Below, one piece after another: positions 6,832 to 58,944 of a DNA stretch of 64,000 nucleotides. The stretch comes from Bacteroidales bacterium. GTDB taxonomy: Bacteria; Bacteroidota; Bacteroidia; Bacteroidales; F082. Made by a program: the position numbers and the translations under genes. Each line of letters begins with the position of its first letter. The first letter of the stretch is position 1. Where the stretch lies: contig JAILBC010000087.1 in assembly GCA_024681295.1 (NCBI GenBank), positions 1 through 64,000 on the forward strand, read 5' to 3'. The notes beneath the pieces are model-generated. The model was not told where the DNA came from. It saw nothing but the letters and a program-made list of their open reading frames with translations, and searched no databases.

Positions 6832-7638
6832 ATGCAAAATTTTAATATTCATACCCACAGTATTTACAGTGACGGCAAATCCACACCTCGCGAACATGTG
6901 GAAGAGGCTATCCGTCAGGGATTGGTGAAACTGGGCTTTTCGGAACACGGGCCCCTACCCTTCGACAACACTTTTTCTGTGAAAGCGGAACGGATGCCTG
7001 ATTATTTGGCAGAGATTGCCCAGCTGAAGGAGGAATTCAAAGATCGAATCGAGATTTTATGCGGTCTGGAGGCGGATTATATCCCTGGAGTTTCGGAAAC
7101 TTTTGCCGTGACCAAAGAGAAATATCACCTTGATTATTTGATTGGTGGCGTTCATCTGGTGGGTCATTCGGCCAACCCTGAGGAACTTTGGTTTATCGAT
7201 GGACCCAAATGGGAGATTTATGACGAGGGGTTACAAAAGTTTTTCAATGGCGACATCAGAAAGGCGGTGAAGTGTTTCTTCGACCAGACCAACCAAATGA
7301 TTGAACACGAGGAATTCGACATCATTGCGCATTTCGACAAGATCAAGATGCACAACCGGGATCGGTATTTCCATGAGGACGAGGACTGGTACCGCAAGTT
7401 GGCCTTGGAGACCCTCGACCTGATTCATCAGAAGGGCTTGGTAGTGGAGGTCAACACCCGAGGTATTTACAAGAAACGGTATAACGGTTTCTATCCGTCG
7501 CCGTGGTTGATGACGGAGGCTCACAAGATGGGGGTTCCGATGATCATTTCGAGCGATGCGCATCATTACAGTGAACTCACGCTGGAGTTTGAGGCCGCTG
7601 AGGAAGCATTAATAAGTAGCGTGTCTCCGACACGCTGA
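6832..7638 (+). CDS. PHP-domain phosphatase (histidinol-phosphatase HisK-like)
   Basis: NIHTHSIYSDGKSTPREHVEEAIRQGL, SEHGP, SSDAHH. Confidence 0.85.
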   Translation: MQNFNIHTHSIYSDGKSTPREHVEEAIRQGLVKLGFSEHGPLPFDNTFSVKAERMPDYLAEIAQLKEEFKDRIEILCGLEADYIPGVSETFAVTKEKYHLDYLIGGVHLVGHSANPEELWFIDGPKWEIYDEGLQKFFNGDIRKAVKCFFDQTNQMIEHEEFDIIAHFDKIKMHNRDRYFHEDEDWYRKLALETLDLIHQKGLVVEVNTRGIYKKRYNGFYPSPWLMTEAHKMGVPMIISSDAHHYSELTLEFEAAEEALISSVSPTR

Positions 7639-7734
7639 TATTTTAGTGTGTTGTCCGAGACCCCAGGCTGCGCTTCGCTGGCCAGGGGTTATTAGAATAG
7701 CGCCTCTTCGAGGCGCCTTGAATGATACAAAAAA

Positions 7735-7759
7735 CCCCACCAGCACGAGGTTGGTGGGG
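7735..7759 (-). terminator. Intrinsic terminator for rpmF/yceD transcript
   Basis: On minus strand CCCCACCA..TGGTGGGG stem followed by TTTTTT. Confidence 0.65.
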
Positions 7760-7791
7760 AAAAACAATATAAAGATTATGAAAAAAATCCG

Positions 7792-7977
7792 TTATTGCTT
7801 GGCTGCGGTAAGCTGCTTGCCTTTGTAATAAAGGTCGCCGTCCACATAGTAAGCTCTATGTCTGACGTGCAAGGTGCCGGTGACGGGGTCGATGGTCACG
7901 TTGGGCGTTACAGCCTTGTAATGTGTTCTTCTCTTTGCGCCTCTGGTGTGAGACTGTCTACGTTTAGGATGTGCCAT
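7792..7977 (-). CDS. rpmF: 50S ribosomal protein L32
   Basis: MAHPKRRQSHTRGAKRRTHYKA; canonical L32. Confidence 0.95.
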   Translation of the reverse strand: MAHPKRRQSHTRGAKRRTHYKAVTPNVTIDPVTGTLHVRHRAYYVDGDLYYKGKQLTAAKQ

Positions 7978-31863: not shown

Positions 31864-32985
31864 TCAAAACTTTTCGCCTTCACATATTCTTTTTATTCTT
31901 TGGATTGCTTTAATTTTCAACGAAACTATTTCTTGATCATCGCATGCGTTTTTTTGACAAATCCTTTGTGCTATCAATGCTGCGCAATAATATGCTCTTA
32001 TTTTTACTAAATTGCACATAGACTTGTCCCTTTCTGATAATTTGCCGTTAGCCAGATAATTTGCACCGTAACAATTAGGACAAATTGGATAAAAGTAACA
32101 ATTGTGGAAGCAGTACTCATCAATAAGATTTTTATCATCTAAGAAATCTGAAATATGAATACTGTTGAGTTGCTCATTTGAAAAAGACATCGGCGTAAAA
32201 TAATTGCAGGGATACTCTTTCCCGTCACAATCATATGCCATAATGGTTTTGCCAGCACAATCTTTGTTTCTCACATACTGTCTGTCAAATTCACAATTCT
32301 CAATGGATAAATCTAACAATGGAGCCACCTCAATATCAGGATGTTCGAGGTAATAATTTACAAGTTTTTCCAATTCATTTTGCAGCGTTTTACAATACTC
32401 AGTTTTAGACCAATTTATCCCTTCTGCAAAATTTGTTCCGGCTAATTTAAACCCCAAATCATGTAAATAAATAATGTTTTCCGACAGATTAGAAAGGCTT
32501 TGAGGGGTTATGGTCATTTTTACGGGCTGATTAGGCCAATTCGATAAAAAGAAATTAATATCAATTTGGGCAAATGAGTTACACCTATTTTGATTATGGG
32601 TGTTTGGGGTACCATCTAGACTTAAACCACAACTAATTTGCCTATTGTGATTATGTAGCCACTTCTGGATTTCTCCGTGGATTAACGTGCCGTTTGTTGA
32701 AGTGAAAAATCGGTAATTATTTTTCCAATGCTGCCGCCAGGTCCATTCACAAATTTCTCTAATAACATCTTTCTTTATCCAAGGCTCACCGCCAAAAAAC
32801 TCAATTACAATATAATCATAGTCATCGGAGTTCAAATAAGTTGCAATTATTTCTTTAAATCGATTAACATCAACAATTACCGAATCACGTTTTTTTTCAT
32901 AGCAGTATACACAACTCAAATTGCACGCATGTGTTACAACAAGCATTATCTGAAACTGCCGGATTTCTGTTGGGTTTTTCACCAT
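31864..32985 (-). CDS. Radical SAM/SPASM peptide maturase
   Basis: THACNLSCVYCYEKKR (CxxxCxxC); multiple C-terminal Cys (CFHNCYFYPICPNCYG). Confidence 0.88.
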   Translation of the reverse strand: MVKNPTEIRQFQIMLVVTHACNLSCVYCYEKKRDSVIVDVNRFKEIIATYLNSDDYDYIVIEFFGGEPWIKKDVIREICEWTWRQHWKNNYRFFTSTNGTLIHGEIQKWLHNHNRQISCGLSLDGTPNTHNQNRCNSFAQIDINFFLSNWPNQPVKMTITPQSLSNLSENIIYLHDLGFKLAGTNFAEGINWSKTEYCKTLQNELEKLVNYYLEHPDIEVAPLLDLSIENCEFDRQYVRNKDCAGKTIMAYDCDGKEYPCNYFTPMSFSNEQLNSIHISDFLDDKNLIDEYCFHNCYFYPICPNCYGANYLANGKLSERDKSMCNLVKIRAYYCAALIAQRICQKNACDDQEIVSLKIKAIQRIKRICEGEKF

Positions 32986-33022
32986 TATTTATACTTAGAA
33001 TTAATGAATTAATTGACAAAAA

Positions 33023-33058
33023 AAGATAGGACGACCCAAAGCCAGGCCGCCCTATCTT
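33023..33058 (-). terminator. Intrinsic terminator/attenuator between small peptides and maturase
   Basis: Minus strand: AAGATAGGGCGGCCTGGCTTTGGGTCGTCCTATCTT followed by a T-run. Confidence 0.7.
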
Positions 33059-33065
33059 CATCATT

Positions 33066-33227
33066 TTAAATGACTGGTGTTGACAATCCTTCACAGGCGC
33101 CTCCGCAGCTCATCAAACCACAACCGCCTCTGGTATTTCTTCTATTAGTAGTGCCAGAAGCTTCTAAACCTTCACTCAAACGTGAAAGTTTGTTCATAAC
33201 AGAATCGTTTAAAAAGCTCGTATTCAT
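33066..33227 (-). CDS. Candidate RiPP precursor 3 (53 aa)
   Basis: MNTSFLNDSVMNKLSRLSEGLEASGTTNRRNTRGGCGLMSCGGACEGLSTPVI*; Gly/Cys-rich C-terminus. Confidence 0.65.
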   Translation of the reverse strand: MNTSFLNDSVMNKLSRLSEGLEASGTTNRRNTRGGCGLMSCGGACEGLSTPVI

Positions 33228-33310
33228 ACGAAATAGTTTTACTCCTACTCTTACGCCTTCGTAGGTCTTGGCTTGTATAGTTTGCAAATACGTCACTAAT
33301 TTATTTCTTA

Positions 33311-33412
33311 TCAATAATCTTCACAAGAACAAGTGTCGCAGGCGACATTACATCCACAATTGGGCTTCCAAGGATCATCACAACTACAATCCCATCTCCT
33401 TTCACAAACCAT
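33311..33412 (-). CDS. Candidate RiPP precursor 2 (33 aa, Cys-rich)
   Basis: Not in ORF track; MVCERRWDCSCDDPWKPNCGCNVACDTCSCEDY*; ATG overlaps the stop of precursor 1 (TAATG). Confidence 0.6.
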   Translation of the reverse strand: MVCERRWDCSCDDPWKPNCGCNVACDTCSCEDY

Positions 33413-33561
33413 TACCACGCATCACATTCAGAATCGCAACAATCACACTCTGAATCGCAGCACCAATCACAATCATGATCGCAATCGCACCATGGCTCAC
33501 ATCTAACGTCTTCTTGCGTTTCATTCACAAAAACAATTTCACTAACATAATATTTCTCCAT
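33412..33561 (-). CDS. Candidate RiPP precursor 1 (49 aa, Cys/Asp-rich)
   Basis: Not in ORF track; MEKYYVSEIVFVNETQEDVRCEPWCDCDHDCDWCCDSECDCCDSECDAW*. Confidence 0.65.
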   Translation of the reverse strand: MEKYYVSEIVFVNETQEDVRCEPWCDCDHDCDWCCDSECDCCDSECDAW

Positions 33562-33606
33562 AGTTATTCATGCCAGTTTTATCCCGTTGGCACTTCGGTT
33601 ATTAAT
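33559..33606 (-). promoter_or_regulatory. Leader shared with the second RiPP-like locus
   Basis: AACCGAAGTGCCAACGGGATAAAACTGGCATGAATAACTATG aligns with the leader at 58890-58932, about 31/42 positions by hand. Confidence 0.6.
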
Positions 33607-33610
33607 TAAA

Positions 33611-34882
33611 CTATTGATTGTTTTCTAGTCCTTTTAAAAGTGTTTCATATAATTCACGTACAATTATCCTTTTAGCAAATTCACATTTTGAACTAATCTG
33701 ATCTTCTGTTAATTCAACACGTTCCATTGAACAAATACCAGCACAATGCCAATATGCATAACAATAAAAACACTCTTCCCGCTTATTATATGTATGAGAC
33801 AAATACTTTTTTTCTGCAGCTTCATCAAAGACAACAGATTGGTTCACTTGACCATAATAAAAAACTGGGAATGCTCTTTCTTGTTCAGACGAAACCCTAT
33901 GACATGCAACGATTGCACCCGTGGGCGTAATACATAATTCTCCTCTACAAAAGCATCCCTTAATTTGATGTATGGATTTTGAAATCGAATTATACACAGA
34001 GATGCCCAACCGCCTTCCTACCTCCTTGGCCTTATAAAAGTATTCAATATACTCGTTGTAGAAGGCATAGCCATCTTCATTGGAATCTGTTACTTGCTCC
34101 AAATGAAGCCTCTTTAAATTTAGGTAGTGTTTAGCCACATACTCAACCATCTCTGGCATCCGTTTCACATTCAACCTTGTTATTGTTGAACGAATAGTAT
34201 AAGGGATGTTGTATTGAATTAGCTTTTTTATATTTGCGTCTACAATATCAAAAGAGGAAGCTTTTCCTCCTTGGTAAGGGCGTAAAGTGTTTTGAACATC
34301 TTCCAGTATTTCGAACGAAACACCAATATGAAGGTTGTGCTCCTTAACATATTGAAACTTGTCTTCGGTGAATAAGGTTGCATTAGTTGTAACCCCAATA
34401 TTCAATCGGTCATCTTGTTTTTTGTTTTTTTCCAAATACTCAACAGCCCACTGAATCAAACTCCACGAGACAAAAGGCTCCCCTCCACCAATAAAGGATA
34501 TGTTCTTTTTCTTTTCAGCACCATTTAAAACAAAATCAAGAGTGGTTTTTAAAACACCGATAGGCATATTCATTTGAGAATGTGCTTCTCGTGCATAACA
34601 ATATGTACACCCTAAATTACATATTTGTGTTGGTATTATTACTGCATTTGCTCCTTTTTTTATCTGTTGCTGTTCCGGCGGACTAACTTCAATGGCTTCA
34701 AGTTGTTTAATATGATTCCAAACTTGAGTGTTCTTGTCCGACTCATCACTTTTATTACTTATATAACGGTTGATGATTGCCACAGAAGCATCATCTGCAA
34801 AAAACAAAGCACGACGTAATGGAGAATAGACCATGTTCTTATTCTCATATTTAATAACATATAAATCGTCTTGCAACCTCAT
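33611..34882 (-). CDS. Radical SAM/SPASM peptide maturase
   Basis: QICNLGCTYCYAREAHS; FIGGGEPF; SPASM Cys cluster (CFCRGELCITPTG, CFYCYAYWHCAGIC). Confidence 0.9.
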   Translation of the reverse strand: MRLQDDLYVIKYENKNMVYSPLRRALFFADDASVAIINRYISNKSDESDKNTQVWNHIKQLEAIEVSPPEQQQIKKGANAVIIPTQICNLGCTYCYAREAHSQMNMPIGVLKTTLDFVLNGAEKKKNISFIGGGEPFVSWSLIQWAVEYLEKNKKQDDRLNIGVTTNATLFTEDKFQYVKEHNLHIGVSFEILEDVQNTLRPYQGGKASSFDIVDANIKKLIQYNIPYTIRSTITRLNVKRMPEMVEYVAKHYLNLKRLHLEQVTDSNEDGYAFYNEYIEYFYKAKEVGRRLGISVYNSISKSIHQIKGCFCRGELCITPTGAIVACHRVSSEQERAFPVFYYGQVNQSVVFDEAAEKKYLSHTYNKREECFYCYAYWHCAGICSMERVELTEDQISSKCEFAKRIIVRELYETLLKGLENNQ

Positions 34883-34894
34883 CTTATGTTAATA

Positions 34895-35932
34895 TTATTC
34901 GTTATTACAACAAAACTCAAATAGAATATCAACAACAGACTTCATATCATTAAACGTTGCAGTTTCTATTGGTGTATGCATATATCTACACGGAATACTA
35001 ATCAGCCCTGAACTACAACCTCCTCGCAACAATTGTATCTCTGCAATATCGGTCCCCGAATGACCAGGAAGAGATTCCGTTTGATACGGGTAACCATACT
35101 TATTTGCGATATCTCTTAAGCTTCTTTGCAATGCGAATGTAAAGTTTGAGCCAAATGGAATCACTGCACCACGGTTTAATCTAATATCTCCATATTTATT
35201 CTTGTTTATGGAAGGATAATCGGTAGCATGTGTTACATCTATCGCAATACACATATCAGGATTGATGTTGAATCCTGCTATTTTGGCACCACGTAATCCA
35301 AGTTCTTCTTGGCAAGAGAGCACAAAATAAATGCTTTTATAGTTAATGCTTACATCTTTAAGCTTTTCGTATAATGTAAACAATGAGGCAACGCCAACTC
35401 TATTATCAATACTCTTAGAAGTAAAAAAAACATCATTGAGTTCGGCATAATTTGGAGAAAAGGAAATCGGGTCGCCCACTGAAACCAATCCTCTAACATC
35501 CTCTTTATCAATCGCCCCAACGTCTATCCACAAATCCGAAACATCAATACTTTTGTCGTTACTATTTTTCGTGTTATTAATCATATGAATAGGCTTTGCA
35601 CCAATTACGCCATTAATAAAATGACCATTATGGGCAATCACCACTTTTTGGCCTCGTAATATGGATGTGTCAACACCGCCGATTGTAGAGAAATAAATAT
35701 ATCCGTTGTCATCAATATATTTGACAGAAAGGCCAATTTCATCATAATGTGCAACTAACATTAGGGTCTTTTCCCCTGGGCCTTTTTTTTGAAAAATAAT
35801 ATTCCCTATAACATCTTGTTCATAGGGAACGTTATGGTTCTTGAGATAATCTAACATGACATCATTCTGGTTTTGATTTTCATAACCAGAAACATAGGAT
35901 GAACAACATAGATTTTTGATTAAAGCCTTCAT
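34895..35932 (-). CDS. M42 family metallopeptidase
   Basis: MLVAHYDEIGLSVKYID, DNRVGVASLF, CQEELGLRGAKIA, PGHSGTDIAEIQ. Confidence 0.88.
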   Translation of the reverse strand: MKALIKNLCCSSYVSGYENQNQNDVMLDYLKNHNVPYEQDVIGNIIFQKKGPGEKTLMLVAHYDEIGLSVKYIDDNGYIYFSTIGGVDTSILRGQKVVIAHNGHFINGVIGAKPIHMINNTKNSNDKSIDVSDLWIDVGAIDKEDVRGLVSVGDPISFSPNYAELNDVFFTSKSIDNRVGVASLFTLYEKLKDVSINYKSIYFVLSCQEELGLRGAKIAGFNINPDMCIAIDVTHATDYPSINKNKYGDIRLNRGAVIPFGSNFTFALQRSLRDIANKYGYPYQTESLPGHSGTDIAEIQLLRGGCSSGLISIPCRYMHTPIETATFNDMKSVVDILFEFCCNNE

Positions 35933-36321
35933 ATAAAATTAAAATAGTGATAAAGAAAAAAAATGATTACATGTCGTCACACGTACGGTTTTTAGTTACA
36001 TTAGGTTGCAAAAATAAATCATTATTTCCAAATTTTCAATATTTAATGCAATGATTTCTAGACAAATCAACCACATAATCACAATTTATTGATATTGGGG
36101 CAAATTTAAGATATAATCTAAACCACTTCTTTTCTGAAACTTTTTCTCATCTTGTTGAAACTTAAAGATTTAGAACCATGTTTGCTCATTGTATTGCATG
36201 TCTACTTGAACATTTCAGGGCGTTCCAAGTGTTTCTTTGCAACAACGTCCGCCAGTAATTACCCATAATAACACGCCTAGTTATATCACATCAGGCTCAT
36301 CGGTTTTAATAGTTATGGTTT

Positions 36322-51852: not shown

Positions 51853-53161
51853 TCCTGACTTTGACAGCTTGTTTTTCCAATCCTTGTAACATACTGTAAA
51901 ACAACAACATCCAAAAACGGTATTGGTGCCTTGGGTGTCTCGCGTCGAAAAACGCCTATCTTTGCGGCATGTTTGTGCGCAAAAAGGTCAACAAAAGCGG
52001 TTTGACGAGGACGTGAAGCTCCACAGCATCTACCGATACATGGACAAGCTCTATTCCACGCAACGGGAACTTGTCCAAAGGATAAGCGTCGAACACACGA
52101 TGAAGGTTCTTGGTGGCAGGATAGGCCTGGTCTTCTACGATGTCACCACGCTCTACTTCGAGTCTGCGCCCGACCCCTCGGACGAGCTCCGCCAGAACGG
52201 GTTCTCCAAGGACGGCAAGACCGCAGAGTCGCAAGTCTTCCTCGGCCTGCTGGTGAGCGAGGACGGACACCCGCTTTCCTACTCCATCTTCAACGGGAAG
52301 TAGTACGAGGGCTACACGATGATACCGATCATCGACGACTTCGTCCGGCGGTTCTCGCTGACAGACTTCATCGTGGTGGCCGATGCGGGTCTCATGAGCG
52401 AGGCCAACGTGAGGCTTCTCGAGGAGGCCGGCTACAAGTACGTCATCGGCGCCCGCATCCGCAAGGAGTCCCCAGCGGTCAAGGAGTGGATGCTGTCGAT
52501 CAAAAAGGTGGACGGTCACATGGAGGAGTACCGCAAAAGAGGCGGGCGCAGGCTTGTCGTCAGCTACTCCGAGTCCAGGGCCAAGAAAAACGCCCACAAC
52601 CGTAACGAAGGAGTGGATCGGCTTCGCCATGCTTACGCCAAGGGAACGCTGACCAAGGACAAGGTAAACCGACGGGGATACAACAAGTTCCTCGACATCA
52701 GCAAGGACATAACGGTCACCATCAACGAGGACAAGATACTTGAGGATGCCCGCTGGGACGGGTTGAAGGGCTACGTGACAAACACCGACCTTGACATGGC
52801 AGAGGTCATCCGCCAATATCATGGCCTTTGGGTGGTCGAGCGAGCCTTCCGCATCGGCAAGGGACAGCTGGAGATGAGGCCGATGTTCCACTTCACCGAG
52901 AAGCGCATAGAGGATCACATCTGCATATGCTTCGTGGCCTACAAGATGTACAAGGAGCTTGAGCGAAACATCCGACAGTTGGGCATCCCGATGAGTGTTG
53001 ACAAGGTGCTAAGCGTCGCAAAAACCATCACAACCATCCGCTTGCGCCTTCCCAATGGAGAACTGTATACTGAAACACTCTATACCACACCTCAGCAGAA
53101 GGCTATTAAATCCCTAATTGAACCAGATTTTGGGTAGGGTGCCTCATTGTCAAAGTCAGGA
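51853..53161 (+). mobile_element. Defective IS1634-type (IS4 superfamily) insertion sequence
   Basis: Perfect 14-bp TIRs TCCTGACTTTGACA (51853-51866) and TGTCAAAGTCAGGA (53148-53161). Confidence 0.85.
51969..53137 (+). pseudogene. IS1634-family transposase with internal deletion and amber stop
   Basis: MFVRKKVNKSG then frame change into FDEDVKLHSIYRYMDKLY; FYDVTTLYFE, ADAGLM; TAG at 52301-52303 within FNGK*YEGYT. Confidence 0.85.
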
Positions 53162-53762: not shown

Positions 53763-55121
53763 TTATTCTATTTTGACTATTTTAAGATGACGCTTATTAC
53801 TTTTTATATCTTTCACAACACTCTCCAATTGTGTAGTATAGCAGCGACATGTGTTAATGTCATCACCTATAAAAGCCCTATAGTCTGAGCAAGAAGCGTA
53901 CTTACATATCGGATACAACTCACATTTCTTGCATCTTATGTCAATCCTGTCTTCCGTATAAATATGCATGGGGCCGATGTCTTGGCGGACACCATTGAAC
54001 ACATCACCAATGATGTATTCCAATTCTCCAAAATGATGTTCACACTTATACAAATTTCCTTTCGGATCTATTGCGACATTATCGTAAAGGAAATATTTAC
54101 ACCCAATAGGGTAAAAACGTTCTGTGTAATAACAATCAATAGGGAAGCCCAAGGAATGAAGATGTGTTGCGAAAGCGCGGTAGACTGTCTTAAAAGAACC
54201 AGCAGGAAATACTTTAATTACTGAGTCCCGTGAATAGTCCATGACTTCCGACAATCTGACATCCAAGTTCTTCTTATCAACAACTCTTTGGTCTAATATT
54301 TCGACAAACTTATATAGTTCGTCAAGGTTGTCTGGCGTGGCATTTAACCTTACTATGGTATGTATTGTTTCACAGCAAAACACTATATTGTCGATAACAC
54401 GCTCATAACAATCTCCTTTAACATTTCTTATTCTCGAATACCTGTCTTTTAAGCCGTCTATTGATATTTGGACAGATTGGAGGTTACATACCGCCACTAA
54501 CTCCTGAACTCTCTTCGGCGACAACAATAAACCATTGGTTATCAACTTTGTATTTAGTCCCACTTCAGGTCGGATTCTTTGCAACAGATCTCGTGTCATA
54601 CGAACAATTAATGGATACTGCAACATAGGTTCTCCACCAAACCAAACCAAACACAGTTTTTTCACTCCTTCACGTTTTGTAAGACCCAGAATATAATCAA
54701 TCGTGGCATTCGCTGTTTCGGACGACATCACAGAGTCATCTAACAGATATCTTTTATCCTTTTCGAAACAATAGGCGCAGTGCATGTTGCAAATCAGAGA
54801 TGGCGCTATCGTCACTTCTATGTCCGACCTGTCTCTTTTTTCTGCAAACGATGAGCTTTCTTTGAGCAATGCGTTGAACTCATCAATGTTTTTTTCAACA
54901 ATAAAACCGCCTCGGAGTAACGTCTCTGCATCCGAGATAGTAGCGATTGTATTTTCTGTCGCTTTGCTGTATTTGTTGTATGGAAAGCTACAAATATTGC
55001 CCGACTTGGTGTTGTATACGAAATAATTGTCGCCTTCTGCTTTTATGAGAATATTATACAAAGACCACTTGTATCGTGACTCATCCAATGTTTTGGCGAA
55101 TAAATTGTTGCATTTGTTCAT
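53763..55121 (-). CDS. Radical SAM/SPASM protein
   Basis: LICNMHCAYCFEKDKRY; WFGGEPML; CKKCELYPICKYASC. Confidence 0.9.
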   Translation of the reverse strand: MNKCNNLFAKTLDESRYKWSLYNILIKAEGDNYFVYNTKSGNICSFPYNKYSKATENTIATISDAETLLRGGFIVEKNIDEFNALLKESSSFAEKRDRSDIEVTIAPSLICNMHCAYCFEKDKRYLLDDSVMSSETANATIDYILGLTKREGVKKLCLVWFGGEPMLQYPLIVRMTRDLLQRIRPEVGLNTKLITNGLLLSPKRVQELVAVCNLQSVQISIDGLKDRYSRIRNVKGDCYERVIDNIVFCCETIHTIVRLNATPDNLDELYKFVEILDQRVVDKKNLDVRLSEVMDYSRDSVIKVFPAGSFKTVYRAFATHLHSLGFPIDCYYTERFYPIGCKYFLYDNVAIDPKGNLYKCEHHFGELEYIIGDVFNGVRQDIGPMHIYTEDRIDIRCKKCELYPICKYASCSDYRAFIGDDINTCRCYTTQLESVVKDIKSNKRHLKIVKIE

Positions 55122-55977
55122 AAGTCTTGAAATCTACACCGTATTGTCCATATGTAATATCTGGAAGAGTGTTGCAGTATAACAAACGTCCGAAAGTATC
55201 GAAAGCCAAAGGTACCAATTTATGGTTTTTGCATGAACAGTGGAACCTCCCGTCAAAAAAGTACTCGATCTCTTTTTCTAATTCTGTTATCGGACAGCAA
55301 CACTCTACCAACCATTTCATTGTCTTTGCCGCAGCTACTGTCTTTAGTTTGTCATAAAACATAGGCAGCAGTATTTCCGGACTGTTTGCCTCAAAAAAAG
55401 CACGGTCACACTCTGCGCCCTGTGGTTCTTTCAAAAAAGAGAAAACAATCAGTCGGGCTCCTTTTTCCGACAACAGTTCCATCAAGTCATCAAGATGTTC
55501 GATAAAAGACGCTGTCAACACAGCTGACAATCCAAATTTAATTCCACATCCCGACAGGTTGTCGATGGCTTTGACGATGGAGTCAAAACAATCTATACCC
55601 GTTGTGTGAATATAATTATCTCTATTGCTTCCTTTTAACGAGAGCATTACAGAATCAAGACCCGCCTGAAGGAGAGCGTCAAGGTGGGTTTTATCCGACA
55701 ACAAAAGGCCATTTGTGGTTATCTCCGCCAGCATGCCTTTTTCCTTACATCTTTTGAGACCATCTGACAGATAAGGATATATCAAGGGTTCCCCTCCGAG
55801 AAACACGACTTTTTTCACTCCACCCTCACCACACATGTCTATCAGGTCAAACAATAAATCTTTATGCATGTTGAGTTCCGCTTTCTCCCCATACCTGTCA
55901 TAGCACCAAAAACAGTCCATGTTGCACAGCCTATTCACGGTAATCCAAGAGCAATAATGTCTTACTATCTCATCCAT
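55081..55977 (-). CDS. Radical SAM protein
   Basis: NRLCNMDCFWCYDRYG; FLGGEPLIYP; likely start MDEIVRHYCSW overlapping the GT8 stop. Confidence 0.85.
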   Translation of the reverse strand: MDEIVRHYCSWITVNRLCNMDCFWCYDRYGEKAELNMHKDLLFDLIDMCGEGGVKKVVFLGGEPLIYPYLSDGLKRCKEKGMLAEITTNGLLLSDKTHLDALLQAGLDSVMLSLKGSNRDNYIHTTGIDCFDSIVKAIDNLSGCGIKFGLSAVLTASFIEHLDDLMELLSEKGARLIVFSFLKEPQGAECDRAFFEANSPEILLPMFYDKLKTVAAAKTMKWLVECCCPITELEKEIEYFFDGRFHCSCKNHKLVPLAFDTFGRLLYCNTLPDITYGQYGVDFKTYEQMQQFIRQNIG

Positions 55978-56887
55978 AAACTCTATATGTTTCCAACATT
56001 TCTTCTGGTAACTGTCGGGCATAAGACCACCACAACTCATAGTAACAATAGAACGGTGTGGTAGAAATAGCGTCCGTTTCACCTTTCATGAAATGATTAT
56101 AGTAACGCCATGGCTTGTCATAGATTGTCGAGCCGTTAGAATTCAGGAAGTGAACAATCCGTCGCTTAGGAATAATGCCTTTGCAGCTACAGAAAGAGTC
56201 ATACAACTCTTTTGCGGAAAGATTGTAATTATAATCAAATGGCATTATTAGTTTACATCTTCCCCTCAAGGTGTTTGCCATCACCCACTCCTCAAATTGT
56301 TCTTGCTTCTTACCCGTCGACAGATACGCATCAAGCCACTGCCTATAGGTGCGGATTGTAATGTCTCGCCTCATTAAATCGAGATTGTACAATATCACTC
56401 CTCCATTAAAACCATCTCTGTAATTTGGGTCTTCAACATGGTTTTTAAGAAGGAGGTTATTCAATGTTCTTCTATTATGGCATCCCACCACGTAATTGTC
56501 GCGGAAATCAACACAATAAAGTTCGCTGATGTCACCAGTGACCAATGTATCGGCATCCAAGCCCAGAACACGATCCATATCGACTGGAAGATACTTGTGT
56601 GGCACCATTTTAGAATAGAGGAACCCAGGGTACCTATCTGTGTTTAGAAAACCCTTACCATCATCTTCATCGCAATGAAAATAATTAGACTCCGCCCCCA
56701 ATGAATCGATAAACGCAGTCATGACCTTTTTGCGATCTTCCGATATGTCTGGTGTTATAAAATTGAAAACCACTTTCAACGATGGAGCATTTTTAATTAT
56801 CGATATAATCAAAGGCCCCACACTGAAAATGTACGAATCTGTCAACACAAAAAGTATATTAGTGGTCTTCATGACTAACCCTCTCAA
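55970..56887 (-). CDS. Glycosyltransferase family 8-like
   Basis: TTNILFVLTDSYIFSVGPLIISI; RVLGLDADTLVTGDISELY (DxD); FNGGVILYNLDLMR. Confidence 0.88.
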   Translation of the reverse strand: MRGLVMKTTNILFVLTDSYIFSVGPLIISIIKNAPSLKVVFNFITPDISEDRKKVMTAFIDSLGAESNYFHCDEDDGKGFLNTDRYPGFLYSKMVPHKYLPVDMDRVLGLDADTLVTGDISELYCVDFRDNYVVGCHNRRTLNNLLLKNHVEDPNYRDGFNGGVILYNLDLMRRDITIRTYRQWLDAYLSTGKKQEQFEEWVMANTLRGRCKLIMPFDYNYNLSAKELYDSFCSCKGIIPKRRIVHFLNSNGSTIYDKPWRYYNHFMKGETDAISTTPFYCYYELWWSYARQLPEEMLETYRVYG

Positions 56888-57522
56888 AGAGAACTTATCA
56901 CATTCTCCATCTCTTTTACAAACAACGCTATATGATACCCATCACTTGCAGCATGGTTCACTTGTACCGAACATGGCAGCATTTGTTTCCCCTGCTTCTC
57001 ACAAATACGCCCCATAGCTATTATCGGGGACAATGGCATCCGCTGGACTTCGACACTCATAGTAATACTCGAGAAACAGAGTTCGGAGGATGCCGATACA
57101 GCGAACGTGTTCTTTGGTGATGGAAAACCTTGTGGAAACATCGTCTTGTTATTATTGCTTTCAATATCATTAACACAGTTTTTGTAAAACTCCATCAGGT
57201 CCGGCACATATTTGGTCGTCAAACAATAGAAGGTTTTTTTCTCTTTATTGAATGCAATGTAAGAAGGATCTACTCTCTCATATCGCGCCAAACAACCTTG
57301 TTCGTTGATTGTCAGCCTGAAATCTGGAATAGCGTTGACCGCCTTCGACACTACCCAAATTAATACAGGGTATGTTTTTAGCTTGTGTGCCTTTGTAAAA
57401 CAACACAACCTGGAAACATCAATATCTGATGTAATCGATATAGAACATTTGTGTTCCATAAAATGCTTGAAATGCTCTGCCCGATAATACGTGTCCAGGT
57501 CAATTATCTCCAAACTATTCAC
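56884..57522 (-). CDS. Chloramphenicol acetyltransferase-like acyltransferase
   Basis: RAEHFKHFME; VQVNHAASDGYHIALFVKEME (catalytic HxxxDG). Confidence 0.85.
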   Translation of the reverse strand: MNSLEIIDLDTYYRAEHFKHFMEHKCSISITSDIDVSRLCCFTKAHKLKTYPVLIWVVSKAVNAIPDFRLTINEQGCLARYERVDPSYIAFNKEKKTFYCLTTKYVPDLMEFYKNCVNDIESNNNKTMFPQGFPSPKNTFAVSASSELCFSSITMSVEVQRMPLSPIIAMGRICEKQGKQMLPCSVQVNHAASDGYHIALFVKEMENVISSL

Positions 57523-58747
57523 TTACACACAATTTATATTTCAACAACGCTAAATCTTTAATATACTTACGTTTACTCTCACAATTCGACGTATTCCAAT
57601 GTGTTGGACAACCTCCTCTACAGAGCGGGAAAATACTGCAAATCTGACAGGTTTCCCGCATTGTTAGACGACTCCGGTCTATCAGATTTATACATCCTTC
57701 AACATCCGACACACTAATGGGTGAACTTTTTCCGACAGAATCCTCACATTTATGACAAAAGCCCTTACTATCAACAACTATGGCTCCCGAATCCATAATG
57801 GCACACGCCCTATCTATTGAAATCAGTTCCTTAAACAAACTATCGTCATTGTTATAATGAAGATTATCATATAGATAATTCACTATCTCTAATTTCTTCT
57901 GGCAATACTCATTATATGTAAGCGACAACTCTGGATTATCCGTATCTATAAGCGCTATCGTGATATCAAGACTGTCAAGAATATTATCCTGACCAAGTTT
58001 CGACAAAAACACTTTGATGGAATTCATATTTCTCTTGTCCAAATTTATCCTCAAGGTCACATCGCATTTGTCATGCAACAAACGCAAAGCATTGTATAGC
58101 CTCGACCACAACAACTCGTTACCTTGCTTGTTTTCCACAAAGGCATCCAGCCCCCCGTCGACAGTAATCTGCACATGTCTTATATGACACCTGTCCATTC
58201 CATTGATGAAATCGTCGGAAAACAACGTCCCATTAGTGATTATCGATGACTCGTACTCAATCCCCTTTTTCTCACATACACTGATAAACAACGATGACAG
58301 GCGGGTTATCTCATCTTTTTTCAGTAGAGGCTCTCCACCGAACCATACCACATTAACAGCGCAAATATTGGGATTTATGGACATTTCCTTTCCCAAAACA
58401 GCCAAAAGGCTATCCGACAGTTCCTTCTCTGTCACATCGGAAGCTGAATTCCTCTTTTCAAAACAATAATAACAAGATAAATTACACTTTTCTGACAAAG
58501 ATAAAACCATCGTGAGGGTATCTTTTGGGACGCCCTTAGCCTCAATAACATCATCAAATGGGGTCAAGAACCCCAACTCTATAAACTCATTGAGATAGGG
58601 CAAGTCGTCACCTATCGACGTTCTGTTGTCCACATACAAGTCATAAACTTCTCTCTCAATCTCACAGATTGCGCCAGTTTGAGAGTTAAAAAGAATAACA
58701 GTATCGGTATTCTCTTCTAGAACAATATTATAATGAGAAATAAACAA
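57515..58747 (-). CDS. Radical SAM/SPASM peptide maturase
   Basis: SEKCNLSCYYCFEKRN; WFGGEPLLKK; CQICSIFPLCRGGCP. Confidence 0.92.
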   Translation of the reverse strand: MFISHYNIVLEENTDTVILFNSQTGAICEIEREVYDLYVDNRTSIGDDLPYLNEFIELGFLTPFDDVIEAKGVPKDTLTMVLSLSEKCNLSCYYCFEKRNSASDVTEKELSDSLLAVLGKEMSINPNICAVNVVWFGGEPLLKKDEITRLSSLFISVCEKKGIEYESSIITNGTLFSDDFINGMDRCHIRHVQITVDGGLDAFVENKQGNELLWSRLYNALRLLHDKCDVTLRINLDKRNMNSIKVFLSKLGQDNILDSLDITIALIDTDNPELSLTYNEYCQKKLEIVNYLYDNLHYNNDDSLFKELISIDRACAIMDSGAIVVDSKGFCHKCEDSVGKSSPISVSDVEGCINLIDRSRLTMRETCQICSIFPLCRGGCPTHWNTSNCESKRKYIKDLALLKYKLCVSE

Positions 58748-58826: not shown

Positions 58827-58892
58827 TCAATCACAATAGTGAGAGCAGGCCGTTACTTTTCTGTTCTTCTTAGATTTAACGATAACCTTCAT
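58827..58892 (-). CDS. Candidate RiPP precursor (21 aa)
   Basis: Not in ORF track; MKVIVKSKKNRKVTACSHYCD*; preceded by the leader shared with 33559-33606. Confidence 0.6.
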   Translation of the reverse strand: MKVIVKSKKNRKVTACSHYCD

Positions 58893-58940
58893 ACTTATTG
58901 TTCCCTGTTATATCCCATCGGGCCATCGGTTCTAAATTAA
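58890..58940 (-). promoter_or_regulatory. Leader shared with RiPP-like locus 1
   Basis: AACCGATGGCCCGATGGGATATAACAGGGAACAATAAGTATG. Confidence 0.6.
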
Positions 58941-58944
58941 TTAA

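Follow-up and report, generated by a model that had tools for sequence, protein, structure and literature searches.

The preQ1-I riboswitch is an H-type pseudoknot of very small size whose loop 3 is rich in A, and its 3' strand lies at the ribosome-binding site just upstream of the start codon. In the S6:S18 ribosomal protein leader, recognition involves an invariant, unpaired CCG. The preQ1-I riboswitch (class I pseudoknot) has been reviewed (PMC11625349), a structure of SAM-V is available (PMC6061858), and long-loop forms of SAM-II are present in Bacteroidetes and marine sequences (PMC2864571, Table 1). In this study, we analyzed a window of 64,000 nt (contig JAILBC010000087.1 of a Bacteroidales bacterium) and observed a leader element that resembles these systems in part. 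Like preQ1-I, the element is predicted to be an H-type pseudoknot whose loop 3 (AUAUAAC) is A-rich and which lies next to the translation start; however, its conserved loop letters are different, its stem 2 varies freely, and its targets are diverse secreted proteins rather than queuosine biosynthesis or transport genes. SAM-II and SAM-V are likewise H-type pseudoknots that control translation, but the targets of the element are not methionine or SAM genes. Rfam gave no credible match to these or other families, either with cmscan at the gathering threshold or at a relaxed threshold on eight stretches. By analogy, preQ1-I and SAM-V may be the closest models of how the element could work, while the Rfam scans place it in neither class. 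The element may be previously unlisted, or may stand as an unnamed entry among earlier candidate lists (PMC8040213, with thousands of human-microbiome RNA candidates). In contrast to the CCG of the S6:S18 leader, that of the element is paired and changes together with its partner to CUG, ACG, GCG or UCG.

In the window, two minus-strand sites, 33600-33559 (AACCGAAGTGCCAACGGGATAAAACTGGCATGAATAACTATG) and 58931-58890 (AACCGATGGCCCGATGGGATATAACAGGGAACAATAAGTATG), are identical at 31 of 42 positions without a gap, which agrees with the approximate 31/42 of the initial annotation. The consensus written there was off by one, as three bases and not four separate CC from GGGATA at both sites, while its statement that the upstream genes are unrelated holds: one encodes a radical SAM/SPASM maturase-like protein and the other a class I lysyl-tRNA synthetase (PF01921). 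A third site on the same strand (36305-36277) had been missed and was recovered by the written pattern when mismatches were allowed. The likeness of the leaders is far beyond chance, because 0.00 matches to the written pattern with up to three mismatches were expected in shuffled windows, and because some 260 occurrences of the leader are present in relatives, with strong compensatory base changes.

All three copies are on the minus strand and directly follow the stop codon of the upstream gene. Copy 2 (58890..58941), recognized by the covariance models R1 (built from three sequences) and R2 (a second model), by covariation and by its sequence, is a complete element with its start codon at 58892-58890. 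Its stem 1 would be formed by ACCG (S1a, 58930-58927) and UGGG (S1b, 58917-58914), its stem 2 by CCC (S2a, 58922-58920) and GGG (S2b, 58905-58903), and loop 3 is AUAUAACA (58913-58906). Copy 1 (33559..33610; covariance models and sequence), also complete, has its start codon at 33561-33559, with ACCG (33599-33596) opposite CGGG (33586-33583) in stem 1, UGCC (33592-33589) opposite GGCA (33574-33571) in stem 2, and AUAAAACU (33582-33575) as loop 3. The three core pairs of stem 1 and the whole of stem 2 are intact in both, and stem 1 of copy 1 carries a G-C variant (UGG to CGG). Copy 3 (36264..36317; pattern match and covariance models) retains stem 2 (GCCU, 36296-36293; AGGC, 36278-36275), and in its stem 1 (ACCG, 36304-36301; UGUG, 36290-36287) one pair is broken as C.U. 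It is probably decaying, given this mismatch and the doubtful ORF of only 26 codons behind it (ATG at 36266-36264).

Copy 2 precedes a gene for a 21-aa peptide, MKVIVKSKKNRKVTACSHYCD (58827..58892, minus strand). This candidate RiPP precursor is followed by the gene for a radical SAM/SPASM peptide maturase-like enzyme (57515..58747, minus strand; NCBIfam TIGR04463/TIGR04334, below curated cut-offs); a family search with this peptide gave no match. Copy 1 precedes a Cys-rich peptide of 49 aa, MEKYYVSEIVF...CDAW (33412..33561, minus strand), located between two radical SAM enzymes: a maturase-like radical SAM/SPASM protein whose stop codon adjoins the copy (33611..34882, minus strand; NF047865 and others, below cut-off) and a second radical SAM/SPASM protein at 31864-32985. 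The initial annotation had regarded both tiny ORFs as real genes, and this is borne out for their starts, since nearly all intact copies end just 5' of an ORF start codon, which supports the ATGs at 33561 and 58892 as translation starts. The RiPP identity of the two ORFs rests on the neighboring radical SAM/SPASM genes and not on the element. The two RiPP-like neighborhoods (window 31864-34882 and 53763-58747) encode four or more radical SAM enzymes between them. Also seen there were small ORFs rich in Cys (33311-33561), a peptide containing GG (33066-33227) and an M42 aminopeptidase (34895-35932); a CAT-family acyltransferase and a GT8 glycosyltransferase lie 3' of the 21-aa peptide, and a transposase-like ORF (52319-53137; by eye, IS4/IS1634-type) stands beside the second locus.

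Covariation among the copies describes an H-type pseudoknot of about 33 nt with the topology S1a-L1-S2a-L2-S1b-L3-S2b. From 5' to 3' the proposed element would thus read NCCG (S1a), A-Y-G plus 0-3 nt (loop 1), S2a, R-A (loop 2), UGGN (S1b, pairing with NCCG), A-U-A-U-A-A-C-N (loop 3) and S2b, followed by 8-10 A-rich nt and the AUG. With few exceptions, the A and G of loop 1, the A of loop 2 and the A-U-A-U-A-A-C of loop 3 are nearly invariant, and the sequence of stem 2 (3-6 bp) changes freely while its pairing is kept. In alignment A3, which was fitted to a model already containing stem 2, 91.2% of the stem 2 cells are paired (55% when shuffled) and the covariation score is 0.822, against 0.202 for shuffled and at most 0.083 for slid controls. 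This covariation is not circular, since in a set picked by loop pattern regardless of the stem the three inner pairs (1-3) of stem 2 are still Watson-Crick in 82-88% of the 136 matches listed, compared with 40-56% after shuffling.

Stem 1 co-varies as well. Among 257 distinct copies, CCG/UGG is replaced by CUG with CAG (4), ACG with UGU (2) and GCG with UGC (1), plus wobbles; by pair, C-G changes to A-U (2) or G-C (1), C-G to U-A (4), and G-U to G-C or A-U. The double changes, 3 and 4, compare with shuffle means of 0.05 and 0.08 and a maximum of 2 in 5000 shuffles, in counts that ignore phylogeny and comprise few events (7 in 257, plus 2 prospective). At the fourth position of stem 1 the common A.G combination is non-standard; where the 5' base is not A, 40 of 42 copies retain the pair (on average 20 after shuffling, at most 31). 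Both helices taken together score 0.363 in alignment A6, against 0.137 when shuffled. A prospective search of 100 genomes of the genus, with the central stem 1 bases left free, returned further copies; stem 1 was paired in each fetched copy whose stem 2 was intact and whose AUG was close by, and two new genomes (G700 and G714) pair it through CUG/CAG. Our first model was a simple hairpin whose 14-nt loop stayed unpaired; it was discarded when a copy in the window's own genome, on contig C137 (AGCG...UGCG), showed the loop pairing back. In a subgroup of copies (L317, L319, L324, L325, L329, L332, L334, L335 and L337), stem 2 resembles CCCC/GCGGC with an internal mismatch and S1b is UGGU; a copy resembling this subgroup (L031) precedes an apparent DUF2807-type lipoprotein.

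The position of the element relative to the gene is equally constant. In most intact copies it ends 8-10 nt 5' of the AUG; the distance from the first base of S2b is 12-16 nt for 180 of 197 starts, and 193 of the 197 are AUG. By its compensatory helix covariation and its fixed 5' position and orientation, the element is, on sequence grounds, a probable cis-regulatory structured RNA. A function at the level of DNA, as a promoter, an operator or a recombination or insertion site of the REP- or attC-like hairpin kind, would suit its multicopy and patchy occurrence, which in places includes tandem gene arrays and a prophage-like region. However, compensatory changes in two interleaved helices, the constant orientation with an end near the start codon and the likely -7 box upstream make such a function extremely unlikely. 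The Bacteroidetes -7 box (TAnnTTTG) occurs within -45..-8 in 48 of 162 copies, compared with 12 in a control stretch, and, where found, peaks 29-35 nt upstream of CCGA, so that transcription would start just before the element. The transcript context of the copies is varied, as many lack a recognizable promoter and about 10% of the intact copies directly follow the stop codon of the upstream gene. The initial annotation had proposed a promoter/5' UTR or regulatory element; a shared 5' leader element it is, but not a promoter, since the -7 box, where present, is located some 30 nt further upstream and, in the window, stop codons come immediately before the copies. This varied context bears also on a role in mRNA stability, in which the pseudoknot, being compact and, in promoter-bearing copies, some 20 nt away from the inferred start of the transcript, would block exonucleases at the 5' end. 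We regard this as distinctly improbable, because many copies are without a recognizable promoter or directly behind an upstream stop codon, and the AUG spacing is tightly kept in all contexts. An upstream ORF or leader peptide within the loop (AUG GGA UAU AAC, M-G-Y-N) was rejected: at the most frequent spacing its frame differs from that of the gene, some loops contain stops (UAG, UAA), and there is also an ACG variant.

The target genes are diverse. The 153 target proteins fall into 90 sequence clusters and match 31 Pfam families, mostly once each, and 84% of them begin with a signal-peptide-like sequence (by our own heuristic), compared with 26% of other ORFs at the same loci. The initial annotation had read the leader as a feature of RiPP-like, Cys-containing peptide loci and had named its occurrence upstream of unrelated genes as the finding that would speak against this; such occurrence is indeed widespread. 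Both copies noted at first precede Cys-containing peptides near radical SAM enzymes, and the targets also include a family of CXXX-repeat radical SAM targets (TIGR04117/TIGR04114), but RiPP-like proteins are a minority, and we give hardly any credence to a RiPP-specific leader. In tandem arrays of small secreted-protein genes, most genes have a copy of their own. Such arrays comprise three to seven genes (L209:4595-8524, L242 and L220), and small helix-turn-helix-like proteins (HIGxLI...) are encoded repeatedly at no more than a few kb from element clusters (L209:3160-3387, L239:8211-8495 and L224:9205-9411).

Overall, covariance models and pattern searches yielded about 260 distinct copies. 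Among 61 genomes of the genus of the window, R1 was positive in 29, with up to 10 copies each, and R2 in 47 (14 without), with 0-10 copies per genome. Distribution across the order is patchy, with R2 matches in at least 12 of 247 genomes and at least 8 of 173 genera, and two genomes of a second Bacteroidales family carry 10-11 copies each. In a phylum sample, at least 2 of 397 genomes matched, namely the window's own and one other (G439) that is probably false, its pairs being broken; these order and phylum counts are lower bounds because the search filters were strict. In this sample, the element is essentially absent from the rest of the phylum beyond Bacteroidales. A pattern scan of contigs agrees in that, among the matches listed, almost all are from uncultured rumen or gut Bacteroidales, and the scattered ones in other phyla are attributed to chance, with no stem and no suitable start codon.

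The same element stands before the start codons of genes for unrelated, mostly secreted proteins and of phage genes, and it is therefore probably a shared device that controls when the downstream proteins are made. We consider it likely that it is a cis-acting pseudoknot at a fixed distance 5' of the AUG whose folding state controls translation initiation. An action on translation is suggested by the AUG spacing, which is conserved with or without an adjacent promoter. Potentially, the folding state would set ribosome loading at the adjacent start codon, and a trans factor or ligand might read the invariant loops and thereby stabilize or open the knot, so that recognition would coordinate genes for envelope and secreted proteins and for some peptides as one regulon. 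Either a small ligand, like those of the preQ1-I or SAM-II switches, or an RNA-binding protein could be this partner. It is tempting to speculate on a new riboswitch class, among the smallest known, that senses a signaling molecule, sets the translation of a surface and secreted-protein regulon in uncultured Bacteroidales and has been borrowed by their phages, which we hold to be possible but doubtful; the 153 targets point to no single metabolite.

A more specific form of the pseudoknot account is a translational operator, in which a dedicated RNA-binding protein on the invariant loops blocks or recruits the ribosome, by analogy with the operators of CsrA or phage coat proteins. Loops that stay invariant while the stems vary, the many unrelated targets and the regulon-like multicopy spread would fit such a protein, and ligand binding fits equally. 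Like the GGA-loop hairpins of CsrA/Rsm, the element has a hairpin with GGGA in its loop directly 5' of the start codons of many unrelated genes; however, the GG pairs with CC in stem 1, where compensated replacements by AG, GU or GC are seen, and csrA was found in 0 of 21 relative genomes, with positive controls. The RbpB-FopS/GibS system of Bacteroides also exerts post-transcriptional control at Bacteroidales translation initiation regions, with envelope proteins among its targets (PMC11697453), but it acts by trans sRNA pairing through single-stranded seeds (PMC11697453), whereas the element is a pseudoknot in cis, and major carriers lack RRM proteins. RRM_1 proteins were absent from six carriers (G535, G638, G039, G671, G604 and G636), several of them heavy ones. 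CsrA and RRM proteins were thus rejected as universal partners, and the loci read showed no RNA-binding regulator alongside the element. A protein operator is a realistic candidate all the same, if somewhat short of probable. A loop-complementary sRNA was rejected: in 14 genomes, most exact matches to ATGGGATATAAC are copies of the element, and the few others have no evident shared locus.

Bacteroidota ribosomes ignore Shine-Dalgarno sequences, the 16S tail being sequestered on the 30S platform (PMC9976891, PMC6847099), and initiation relies on a Kozak-like context (PMC6847099). The hidden tail and this context fit an alternative signal at the position of the element, which could then be a ligand-free translation enhancer or ribosome-docking element that replaces the Shine-Dalgarno signal. 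Its fixed AUG distance and its portability between gene families and phages would be expected of such a device. However, complementarity to Bacteroidales 16S rRNA, taken from other Bacteroidales since a search of MAGs of the window's genus gave no rRNA, is not above that of shuffled sequence, and a generic device need not be patchy across families or so biased to secretion. We therefore find an enhancer rather unlikely and prefer a regulatory pseudoknot. In a phylum without Shine-Dalgarno pairing, where little is known of how the translation of single genes is tuned, a portable pseudoknot with a fixed AUG distance that is common to hundreds of unrelated envelope genes and to phages offers a short, testable RNA. 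It also flags the start codons of unannotated small genes, including candidate RiPP precursors.

In IMG/VR, 15 viral contigs, probably from phages of Bacteroidota, match R2 with E values of about 1e-10 to 6e-8. Most of these copies precede an amidotransferase-like gene whose protein starts with Met-Cys and shares 27-40% identity with phage proteins, among which one bears the annotation putative glutamine amidotransferase. In one such contig the terminase is related to proteins of Flavobacterium, Cellulophaga, Maribacter and Bacteroides phages, which points to a probable host within the Bacteroidota. Three records, one of a Methylophilales phage and two of phages of unknown host, have homologous genes that lack the element, which is thus a separable module. 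The genome of the window has a fourth copy, on contig C137 near an integrase (PF00589), and the gene behind it is homologous to a target in a viral contig (E 7e-13). The integrase and phage-like genes (L248:5854-6570 and 7422-7841) suggest that this region is a prophage or an integrative element. On another contig, a match to the twister-P1 ribozyme (L154:957-1039, minus strand; 47.9 bits, E 1.2e-7, below the gathering score) lies about 28 nt upstream of a viral copy of the element on the same strand.
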